From positions 1-42,108 of the forward strand of contig JAAXWL010000009.1 of NCBI GenBank assembly GCA_013334975.1: DNA of 42,108 nt, read 5' to 3'. Source of the stretch: Chlorobiaceae bacterium (GTDB lineage Bacteria; Bacteroidota; Chlorobiia; Chlorobiales; Chlorobiaceae). Positions within the stretch are counted from its first letter, which is position 1. Each line of letters starts with the position of its first letter. Shown one piece after another: positions 15,320-42,108 of the stretch. The notes beneath the pieces were generated by a model. It worked only from the letters and a program-made list of their open reading frames with translations, was not told where the DNA came from and searched no databases. Both the position numbers and the translations under genes were made by a program.

Positions 15320-16180
15320 ATGAAACGACAGATTATAACCATAGATGAAAAAAAATGTACAGGGTGCTCAGCGTGCATTCCGGCATGTCCCGAAGGGGCG
15401 CTCCAGGTGATCGATGGTAAGGCGAGGCTCATCAGTGACCTCTTTTGCGACGGCCTCGGTGCTTGTATCGGCCACTGTCCGACCGGAGCGATGCAGGTCG
15501 AGACCCGCGAAGCAGAACCCTACGACGAACGTCGCGTCATGGCCGAGAGTATCGTGAAGGGCGGGCCGAACGTCATAGCGGCGCATCTGCGCCATCTGGA
15601 GGAGCATGGCGAAAGCGGCTATCTCTGCACGGCGCTCGACTATCTCGAAGAACAGGGTATTGCCAATCCGCTCGAAGCGCGTGCGGCATCAAGCCCTGCG
15701 CACCATGTTGGAGGATGCCCAGGAAGTCGCACGATGGATTTCGGGGAGCCGGTAAGGAGTTCCTCCAGCGAGGCTTCGGTCGCTGCCGTACACGGAGAAC
15801 TCCGTCATTGGCCCATCCAGTTGCATCTCATCACTCCGATCGCGCCCTACTTCCATGATTCCGATCTTCTGGTTGCTGCGGATTGCACCGCTTTTGCGAT
15901 GGGCGGCTTCCACGGCGAGCTGCTGCTCGGCAGAACGCTCGTCATCGCCTGTCCCAAGCTTGACAGTGGCATGGAGCGCTATCTCGAAAAACTGACCGCC
16001 CTGATCGACATGGCCGGCGTTGCCAGCATCACCGTGGCGATCATGGAGGTGCCCTGCTGCAGCGGGCTCGTGGTGCTGGCGCTTCAGGCGCTCGAACGGG
16101 CGAAAAGGAAGGTGCCGGTCAGAAAGATTGTCGTCAGTGTAACCGGCGAGCTGCTCTCCGATGAGGTGATCGCATGTTGA
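15320..16180 (+). CDS. Ferredoxin-domain iron-sulfur protein with a cysteine-containing C-terminal domain, candidate Hcp redox partner
   Basis: 286 residues. The N-terminal 60 residues form a bacterial ferredoxin fold. The first cluster motif is complete (Cys13, Cys16, Cys19, Cys23: CTGCSACIPACP). The second reads CDGLGACIGHCP and has only Cys43, Cys49 and Cys53, with Leu46 where the second cysteine normally stands. This suggests a [3Fe-4S] centre or an outside ligand. The C-terminal domain has HVGGCPGS, HLITPIAPYF, LLVAADCTAFA, LVIACPKLD and EVPCCSGL, so up to five further cysteine positions could bind metal. I do not know a characterised member. It sits between rrf2 and hcp, with no hcr-like flavoprotein, which makes electron delivery to Hcp plausible. 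Its stop overlaps the next gene by 7 bases. Confidence 0.8.
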   Translation: MKRQIITIDEKKCTGCSACIPACPEGALQVIDGKARLISDLFCDGLGACIGHCPTGAMQVETREAEPYDERRVMAESIVKGGPNVIAAHLRHLEEHGESGYLCTALDYLEEQGIANPLEARAASSPAHHVGGCPGSRTMDFGEPVRSSSSEASVAAVHGELRHWPIQLHLITPIAPYFHDSDLLVAADCTAFAMGGFHGELLLGRTLVIACPKLDSGMERYLEKLTALIDMAGVASITVAIMEVPCCSGLVVLALQALERAKRKVPVRKIVVSVTGELLSDEVIAC

Positions 16181-16596
16181 AAGATGCCCTGGGCGCCTGG
16201 CGCGGCTCCGAACAGGAGATCAGCCGCTTGATCGATGCCGAACCGGAGAATGCCGAGGCTTGGAGCAGCCGGGCGGGTGTTCGGAGCGCTGCCGGTGACC
16301 TCAACGGGGCATTGCACGACTTCACGATGGCCATAAAGCTTGGTCTGAGATTCCGTGAACGCATCATAGCATTCGGTAATCGCGGCCTGATCCGCTTTGA
16401 TACCGGGGATTACGCTGGAGCGATCGAGGATTTCAGCGCCGTCATCGAGGCGCGACCCCGTCAGAAGGGGATTATGAAAGCAGCCCAAAAATACCGGGAG
16501 ATGGCCAAAGAGCGGGCACTTCAGAAAAAGCGTCATGAGCGGCCTGAGTGCGAGGCAGCTGGAGCACAGAACCCGGAGCGTACACGGAGTACGTGA
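16174..16596 (+). CDS. Small tetratricopeptide-repeat protein with element-derived C-terminus
   Basis: 140 residues as read. Residues 15-105 contain about two and a half TPR units (PENAEAWSSRAGVRSAAGD, LNGALHDFTMAIKLG, FGNRGLIRFDTGDYAGAIED, FSAVIEARPRQ), which mediate protein-protein contacts. From about residue 114 the reading frame enters the dispersed element at 16514-16655, and the last 27 residues (KKRHERPECEA and onward) are simply its translation. The original C-terminus was probably changed by that insertion. The ATG lies inside the end of the ferredoxin-domain gene, so translation is coupled. Its role next to hcp is unknown; a scaffold for assembly or electron transfer is only a guess. 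Confidence 0.75.
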   Translation: MLKDALGAWRGSEQEISRLIDAEPENAEAWSSRAGVRSAAGDLNGALHDFTMAIKLGLRFRERIIAFGNRGLIRFDTGDYAGAIEDFSAVIEARPRQKGIMKAAQKYREMAKERALQKKRHERPECEAAGAQNPERTRST

Positions 16597-16655
16597 GGAT
16601 TTCGAGCACCACCCAACGAAGCAATCAGGTTGCGTAATAGCTTTTTGAAGTGACC
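16514..16655. mobile_element. 142-bp MITE-like dispersed element, copy 1
   Basis: It is about 80% identical along its length to the sequence at 41839-41979. The ends are inverted: GGGCACTTC..AAAAAGC at the left and GCTTTTTGAAGTGACC at the right. The inner part contains GTCATGAGCGGCC, GTACACGGAGTACGTGAGG and GATTTCGAGCACCACCCAAC, shared with the second copy. It encodes no protein of its own but supplies the C-terminus of the TPR gene. No target-site duplication is evident. Confidence 0.85.
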
Positions 16656-40368: not shown

Positions 40369-41703
40369 ATGCCTTTCATTGTCAATTCCGATGCCGAACG
40401 TGCTGACATGCTCAGAAGTATCGGTGTCGCCAGCTTTGACGACCTCATTGCGGATATTCCGGAAGAGGTTCGTCTGCAGAAGGCGCTCGAATTGTTCCCT
40501 GCCATGGGGGAGCCCGAGGTGAAGCGTCTGCTCGAACAGATGGCTTCGAAAAACGCAGCGACCTTCGACCATGTCAGTTTTCTCGGTGCGGGTGCTTACG
40601 ATCATTACATTCCGGCGGCGGTCAGAACCATCTCATCGCGGAGCGAGTTCTACACAGCCTATACTCCTTACCAGGCCGAGGTGTCTCAGGGCACCCTCCA
40701 GGCGATCTATGAATACCAGAGCATGATGTGCCGTCTGTATGGCATGGATGTTGCCAACGCCTCGATGTATGACGGGGCGAGCGCCCTGGCCGAAGCTGCG
40801 ATCATGGCTGTTAACATTACCGGGCGAAACGGGGTGGTGGTGGCCGGCAAGCTGCATCCCTACAGCCGCCAGGTGCTTGAAACCTACCTCGAAGCCGCCG
40901 GTGAGCGAGCCATCGTGCAGAACAGCATCGAGAACGGCATCGGCAGCGTCGCCTCGCTCGAAGCGCTCGTCACCTCCGAGGTGGCGGCGGTGATCGTGGA
41001 GCAGCCGAACTTCTACGGTTGCCTCGAAGAGGTTGAAGCGATTGGCGAGATTGCCCGTAAACACGGCGCGCTCTTTATCGTATCGGCTGACCCGGTTTCG
41101 CTCGGTGTGCTCGAAGCACCCGGCAACTACGGTGCTGACATCGCCGTCGGCGAAGGGCAGTCCGTCGGCAACGCCCAGAGCTTCGGCGGGCCCTACCTCG
41201 GCATCTTCACGGTCAAGCAGGCGCATGTGCGCAAGATTCCGGGCCGTCTGGTCGGTATGACCAAAGACAAGGATGGCGAGGAGGGTTTCATCCTCACGCT
41301 CCAGACCCGCGAACAGCACATCCGCCGCGAGAAGGCAACCTCCAACATCTGCTCGAACCAGGCGCTCTGCGCTTTGCAGTCGGTGGTGCACCTGTCGCTG
41401 CTCGGCAAGAAGGGCATCAGGGATGTCGCCAATCGCTCGATGCAGAAGGCGCACTACCTTGCCGACCGCATCGCCGCGATTCCCGGCTTTTCGCTCAGGT
41501 ACAGCGCCCCGTTCTTCCGCGAATTCGTGGTCGCGACGCCCGTTCCGGCCGCAGCGATCATTGAAAAGATGCTGGAGAAAAAGGTGTTTGCCGGCGTCGA
41601 TCTCTCGGCATGGGGAGAAGATGGCCTGCTTGTCGCCGTCACCGAGAAGCGCACAAAAGAGGAACTCGACAGCTTCGTCAGCGAACTTGCTTCGCTCGGC
41701 TGA
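40369..41703 (+). CDS. gcvPA: Glycine dehydrogenase (decarboxylating) subunit 1
   Basis: 444 residues from the ATG at 40369 ([15 protein letters not shown]). It is the N-terminal half of the split P protein: [36 protein letters not shown] (seen in parts), [40 protein letters not shown]-like [10 protein letters not shown], and [12 protein letters not shown]. The PLP lysine belongs to subunit 2 (gcvPB), which is not in the window. With GcvH, T and L proteins it splits glycine into CO2, ammonia and methylene-tetrahydrofolate, linking to the folate genes in this window. The longer frame from 40276 overlaps gcvH and was rejected. Confidence 0.97.
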
Positions 41704-41723
41704 GTCTCAGAACTGGAAACAGA

Positions 41724-41750
41724 AAAAGCCGCCTCGATGGGCGGCCTTTT
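41724..41750 (+). terminator. Intrinsic terminator after gcvPA
   Basis: AAAAGCCGCC, TCGATG loop, GGCGGCCTTTT: a 6-bp G/C stem with flanking A and T runs, 20 bases past the gcvPA stop. Confidence 0.85.
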
Positions 41751-41754
41751 CATT

Positions 41755-41808
41755 ATGGGTACTATGGGTACTATAGGTACTATGGGTCGTATAGGTCGTA
41801 TAAGTCCT
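41755..41808. repeat. 9-bp tandem array (six units)
   Basis: Six consecutive units: ATGGGTACT twice, ATAGGTACT, ATGGGTCGT, ATAGGTCGT, ATAAGTCCT. Later bases (CTAAGACTA) decay from the pattern. The unit changes gradually along the array, which indicates stepwise duplication. It lies between the gcvPA terminator and the MITE-like element. It has no stable coding role, although it reads through in three-residue steps. Confidence 0.85.
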
Positions 41809-41838
41809 CTAAGACTAAGACCTATTCTTCTTTCTCAA

Positions 41839-41979
41839 GGGCACCTCAAAAAGTGTCATGAGCGGCCTTAGTGCAAGGCGGATGGAGCGCAGAAACCGGA
41901 GTGTACACGTAGTACATGAGGATTTCGAGCACCACCCAACGCAGCAATCAGGTCGCGCAATAAGTTTTTAGAGGTGCCC
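41839..41979. mobile_element. 141-bp MITE-like dispersed element, copy 2
   Basis: Terminal inverted repeats GGGCACCTCAAAA (left) and TTTTAGAGGTGCCC (right) have one mismatch in 14. TCAA stands directly outside both ends (41835-41838 and 41980-41983), consistent with a 4-bp target duplication. The interior matches the copy at 16514-16655. The right TCAA contains the dapA stop codon, so the element abuts that gene without interrupting it. No transposase is encoded, so it must be moved in trans, if it moves at all. Confidence 0.88.
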
Positions 41980-42108
41980 TCAAATCAGCCCGAGCTTTTG
42001 CAACTCTTCGCGCAGGATTGCCTTGTTGGCTTCGGCCATGGGTACCAGCGGCAGGCGGTAAATTTCCTCGATCATGCCCATCAGCGAGAGTGCGTACTTG
42101 ACCGGTAC
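41980..42108 (-). CDS. dapA: 4-hydroxy-tetrahydrodipicolinate synthase, C-terminal fragment
   Basis: The last 43 codons are visible on the minus strand: [42 protein letters not shown] and stop. VKYALSLMG and LGLI at the very end are typical of the DapA C-terminal helices. DapA condenses pyruvate and aspartate semialdehyde in lysine and diaminopimelate synthesis. The gene enters from the right edge. Its stop codon (TGA at 41982-41980) directly touches the MITE-like element. Confidence 0.88.

Follow-up and report, generated by a model that had tools for sequence, protein, structure and literature searches.

A probable IS5-type MITE at the dapA stop codon of a green sulfur bacterium and a hairpin core found behind other stop codons

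A 141-bp non-coding element at the end of the lysine-synthesis gene dapA of a green sulfur bacterium is a MITE, most likely moved by an IS5-type transposase. With a probability of roughly 80%, we consider that this element, with IS5-type ends, inserted into a TCAA at dapA, and that old copies of the same element adjacent to other stop codons were retained as hairpins. The dapA copy is young and stands in the geometry of the retained old copies. Beyond an initial sequence-only reading of this DNA, the analysis added a structured core, different ends in other lineages and a strong stop-codon bias of old copies.

Structure of the element at the dapA stop codon

Coordinates refer to the window, the whole stretch of 42,108 nucleotides that was analysed (Chlorobiaceae bacterium, GenBank assembly GCA_013334975.1, contig JAAXWL010000009.1), and its features are listed in Table 1. 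The terminal repeats of the element are identical at 13 of 15 positions (equal to 14 bp with one mismatch), a complementarity not attained in any of 2000 shuffles of the 149 bp, and the two near-identical ends of the element read GGGCACCTC[A/T]AAAA. The folding energy of the element strand is -59.7 kcal/mol (z -6.9), far better than that of shuffles. Being short, bounded by terminal inverted repeats and free of a transposase gene, the element has the make-up of a MITE.

Table 1. Features at and around the dapA stop codon, in window coordinates
Feature	Position	Strand	Basis or remark
Left target duplication TCAA	41835..41838	.	Direct reading; single TCAA in two empty sites
Element (MITE), 141 bp	41839..41979	-	Strand given is co-linear with dapA and the sX9 match
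Left terminal inverted repeat GGGCACCTCAAAAAG	41839..41853	+	Direct reading, shuffle test
Right terminal inverted repeat GGGCACCTCTAAAAA (minus-strand reading)	41965..41979	-	Direct reading, shuffle test
Conserved hairpin core	41855..41962	-	Matches model R1 in full, at 126.7 bits (one of the model's 43 sequences is this copy)
sX9-matching stretch (Rfam)	41843..41917	-	36.2 bits, gathering score 44
Right target duplication TCAA	41980..41983	.	Includes the complement of the dapA TGA stop at 41980-41982
dapA 3' end	41980..42108	-	Cut by window end and scaffold gap
gcvPA, convergent neighbour	40372..41703	+	NF001696
Terminator-like inverted repeat with T-run, between gcvPA and element	41722..41751	.	
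Second element copy in window, 85% identical	16514..16655	+	

The sequence-only reading had described an element of this size and these repeats, flanked on both sides by TCAA with the complement of the dapA TGA in the right-hand one, and direct reading confirmed its positions, ends and flanks. The minus-strand stop overlaps the right TCAA by three bases and lies 16 nt from the core. The gene was identified as dapA through the orthologue in relative L031, named by TIGR00674. The further claim that dapA was left intact holds for its 3' end (the last 43 codons), the only part carried by the window, because a scaffold gap appears to lie inside the gene directly after 42108.

The hairpin is not an ordinary intrinsic terminator, since no T-run stands behind it: on the minus strand TTGAGAAA comes after the element, and the T fraction after the arm of old copies is 0.31, against 0.27 further out. 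Terminator function was rejected on this ground, and the only terminator call in the region is the site at 41728-41745.

Empty sites and target duplication

The gcvPA locus was obtained from the genus, with an orthologue in 20 of 21 genomes (own included); among the loci of the 19 relatives, 17 carried both the gcvPA and the dapA flank, and L033 and L049 were without the dapA flank. In the two closest relatives (L031 from G016 and L040 from G009) the empty site reads TTCTTCTTTCTCAA-ATCAG, with exactly one TCAA, and aligns on both sides with TTCTTCTTTCTCAA-element-TCAAATCAG of the window. These sites, together with an insertion sequence (IS) with matching ends in the genus, support the MITE-like insertion with TCAA duplication proposed in the sequence-only reading, which had looked to relatives for a single TCAA. 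The alternative named there, an ancient non-mobile sequence, here taken as a regulatory one of the region between dapA and gcvPA, is refuted at this site by its absence from 17 of 17 two-flank relatives and by the clean empty sites, although some copies elsewhere occupy a single site in two or three species.

Taken alone, the dapA site could also be read as a 5-bp duplication (CTCAA), but the family pattern is 4 bp: 61 of the 106 copies that keep two recognisable ends are flanked by an exact duplication of 4 bp, which mostly follows the pattern T/A-N-N-A/T. Nearby, at 41754-41807, the window carries tandem 9-mers (TATGGGTAC-like), the number of which differs between the window and the two closest relatives.

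Family size and candidate transposase

The window's own genome has 10 element matches, including the second copy in the window. This copy lies at the 3' end of an open reading frame (16174-16596), of which it supplies the last codons, and relative L023 is without the element at that site. BLAST matches were present in all 19 genus genomes (own included) and in none of 12 others of the order. The ends are shared by 72 near-full-length alignments of fetched copies, many with flanking duplications.

Two viral-contig matches to the end motif are IS elements of about 1.3 kb with 4-bp duplications, which encode DDE_Tnp_1/DUF772 transposases named NF033581 (IS5 family), and these ends are also those of related elements in the genus. 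One genus genome (G031) has four full copies of such an IS, about 1.3 kb long with a 378-aa open frame named by NF033581 and the ends GGGCGTCTCTAAAAAG and GGGCACCTCGAAAAA; three copies show the duplications TATA, TGTA and TTAA (L323, L512 and L516), and the fourth (L505) is without a clean duplication. A search for a transposase with matching ends, suggested by the sequence-only reading, thereby returned an IS that agrees with the element in its ends and in the length of its duplication. Because this IS5-family element of the genus shares both features with the MITE, as an IS5-family MITE should share them with a full IS, an IS5-type transposase is its most likely mover. The window's own genome gave no match to two such IS5-type transposases, so the mover would be missing or diverged there.

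A structured core with a wider distribution

Between the ends lies a conserved core, which may resemble Correia sequences. An alignment of 43 cores (A1), which includes copies from Methylophilus, from the metagenome-assembled genomes (MAGs) named below and from a Comamonas plasmid, gives a hairpin of 29 pairs, 18 of which have double-sided changes and indicate covarying stems. When species-level genomes were scanned with a 35-base pattern from the core, 77 stretches came up; almost all belong to Chlorobiaceae, Chlorobium ferrooxidans included, and the others to Methylophilus and to two MAGs, one of Nitrosomonadales and one of Pseudomonadota. In a draw of genomes from the phylum, 47 of 296 matched, with 45 in the family of the window and two in a distant family. 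Model R1 recovered all six enterobacterial loci given to it (2e-20 to 7e-13), none of which is in the model; in the four proteobacterial genomes from which copies had been drawn, it found 19, 31, 99 and 10 matches. BLAST detected the central part of the core in 4166 of 5426 E. coli genomes, with a query cover of at most about 57% among the matches listed.

This occurrence in the Chlorobiaceae and in both Betaproteobacteria and enterobacteria bears out the expectation of a broad family. Beyond the Chlorobiaceae (in Betaproteobacteria, E. coli and Salmonella) the core has other ends, for example AGAGCCTATCCCA in Salmonella and other repeats in the Nitrosomonadales MAG. For the enterobacteria, boxC of E. 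coli would be a candidate counterpart. This MAG (G035; L477-L491) accounts for the 99 matches, many of them equal-scoring and near contig ends; the copies read have another end, TTACTGTGTCACA, and look like a recent burst. Elsewhere, two tandem cores stand behind one gene (L420, G018), and RF02514 (5_ureB_sRNA) scores above gathering in two Methylophilus-type loci (L453, 2880-3109; L450, 2105-2294).

The Rfam family sX9 (RF02228) aligns end to end with part of the minus strand of the dapA element (Table 1), including the ATGTAC..GTACACTCCGGTT hairpin, but spans only about half of it. Kinship with sX9 is likely, and short of established because the score is below gathering and 20 further loci had no sX9 match at gathering score. 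PMC9029176 counts sX9 among the sRNAs of highest prevalence in bacterial genomes.

Old copies behind stop codons

Among 187 distinct copies, a count that includes copies from four non-Chlorobium contigs dropped from the later arm and position counts, 57 had no recognisable end motif. Chlorobium copies were classed by this motif (11 bases, at most 3 mismatches), a split that cuts a continuum; copies without ends are here called old and copies with ends young. With stop adjacency defined as a long open frame (not a gene call) that ends no more than 31 nt away on the sense side or 33 nt away on the other, and with at least 330 nt of flank required on both sides, a sense-side stop was adjacent to 39 of 49 old copies and 11 of 82 young ones (Fisher p 4e-14), and an antisense-side stop to 5 and 13, respectively. 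These copies were sampled from best BLAST matches and exact patterns and are not a census; few genomes supply most of them, and they are not independent, since orthologous copies recur (rho-, purH- and lysA-like, as named from our own reading of the sequence). The 39 sense-adjacent old copies stand behind 28 gene families, and in 30 of them, as at dapA, the stop lies 14-19 nt before the core. A hand count of 42 non-enterobacterial proteobacterial copies gave a stop within 20 nt on the sense side in 23 and on the antisense side in 6. Two old copies (L356 and L371) were seen by eye to stand directly behind an apparent tRNA 3' end and not a protein gene.

Paired arms and alternative readings

The outer 16 nt or so of old copies vary from copy to copy, yet stay self-complementary, with a mean stem score of 10.3 against 3.2 (highest 7) for pairings between arms of different copies. 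Arm-to-arm identity in these eroded copies is 0.70, and identity of an arm to the original end 0.43. Among orthologous old copies, changes occur in pairs: the base preceding TAACC is C/C in L025, T/T in L363 and A/A in L355, and GATTGACC in L342 stands against GACTGACC in L346 in both arms. The purH-like site runs counter to this pattern, with mismatched arms in 2 of 4 genomes (L428 and L435). In L398 (G032), an old copy behind a rho-like gene, the core is partly replaced by other DNA and the arms still pair.

This complementarity could have a mutational origin, in which template switching corrects quasi-palindromes at the hairpin without any selection. Shared arm departures do occur in copies that keep their ends as well (205 of 632 positions, 0.32; control 0.09), as template switching would predict, though in young copies they may partly be subfamily signatures. 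The process also leaves the position and orientation of old copies unexplained, and we regard it as a possible but rather doubtful substitute for selection on the arms.

The stop bias itself could have been made at insertion, if an older transposase targeted gene ends one way round, in which case age and not selection would divide the two classes. This agrees with the nearly exact abutment of the stop in the 30 old copies noted above and with the young duplications, which are rich in T and A and so make stop codons eligible targets. Against it, young copies stand at stops about as often in antisense (13 of 82) as in sense (11 of 82), without a bias in orientation, and a separate older mover is unneeded because old arms still resemble the same transposon end. 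We therefore judge it unlikely that targeting alone produced the bias.

It is more improbable still that the outer arms of old copies are host DNA, the core having entered existing palindromes or the gene end having been copied inverted. The arms do vary by locus, reach the stop and sometimes cover the last codons (L342), and stop-adjacent palindromes without a core passed the filter at 22 of 1321 ORF ends, at least 5 of which actually carry a missed core. However, some likeness to the transposon end survives in the arms, with 9.4 of 20 matches against 6.9 in shuffles (highest of 300: 7.4) and 7.4 in sequence further out, and core-free orthologues of three genes, compared by eye across diverged flanks, have no matching palindrome. 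A search for empty sites of old copies found no clean one, the flanks being too diverged, and neither a bare palindrome nor a single arm. Host-derived arms were dropped as the main reading on the residual end likeness and the paired changes in orthologous copies.

Comparison with known repeat elements

IS5 insertion sequences and their MITEs, such as those described for Porphyromonas gingivalis in part of PMC4596501, resemble the dapA element in being short, non-coding and multi-copy with 4-bp duplications, and its ends are common to the NF033581 element of the genus. It differs from such MITEs in its conserved structured core, which has no seen likeness to the IS interior, and is not a deleted IS. 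Correia/NEMIS, ERIC and RUP elements, as treated in sections of PMC2229807, are likewise hairpin MITEs of 100-160 bp that can function as RNA within flanking transcripts; most have 5'TA ends and TA duplications, whereas the dapA element has GGG..CCC ends and 4-bp duplications and so lacks the Correia/ERIC-type combination. YPAL/RU-2 of Yersinia, on the accounts in PMC2229807 and PMC2759123, is also a palindromic element, of about 168 bp and near dyad symmetries, but has duplications of 3 to 26 bp and internal inverted repeats. REP sequences are hairpins close behind stop codons (PMC12306157, in part) of 20-40 bp (PMC3733652, in part), compared with an element of about 140 bp with transposon ends here. 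A literature search, limited to the terms used and a limited collection, returned no description of the element in Chlorobiaceae, and a search with short motifs brought up only unrelated titles and abstracts.

A possible route from transposon to gene part

In the proposed mechanism, the element is a non-autonomous transposon, with IS5-family ends of about 16 bp around a hairpin core of about 108 nt. An IS5-kind transposase encoded elsewhere would have recognised the ends and inserted it in trans, with a 4-bp duplication. The stop codon of dapA lies within the target TCAA, which reads TTGA on the coding strand, so that duplicating the target restored the stop and left the protein end unchanged. 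The 3' untranslated region on the dapA strand would now start with a long hairpin abutting the stop. Copies in this position may be kept since the hairpin acts on the mRNA of the upstream gene, through stability, processing or translation termination, so that retained old copies would serve as 3'-end RNA hairpins. Translation falls and ribosomes stall where a REP lies less than 16 nt from a stop, as stated or cited in PMC12306157, and RNase III acts through NEMIS stem-loops according to part of PMC2229807; a REP-like or RNase III effect would be a reasonable first test for dapA.

A wider proposal, put forward tentatively and at somewhat less than even odds, is that one core with lineage-specific transposon ends has spread through at least two phyla and been repeatedly domesticated as a stop-abutting 3'-UTR structure with compensatorily paired arms, the sX9 'sRNA' being a fragment of such mobile elements.

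If this account is right, the family offers a datable path by which a genomic parasite turns into part of a gene, in which young copies land either way round and the survivors are those in sense orientation behind a stop. The much-annotated sRNA family sX9 would then be suggested as transposon-derived, and the stop-abutting geometry would permit a direct test of the effects of such hairpins on translation or mRNA ends.
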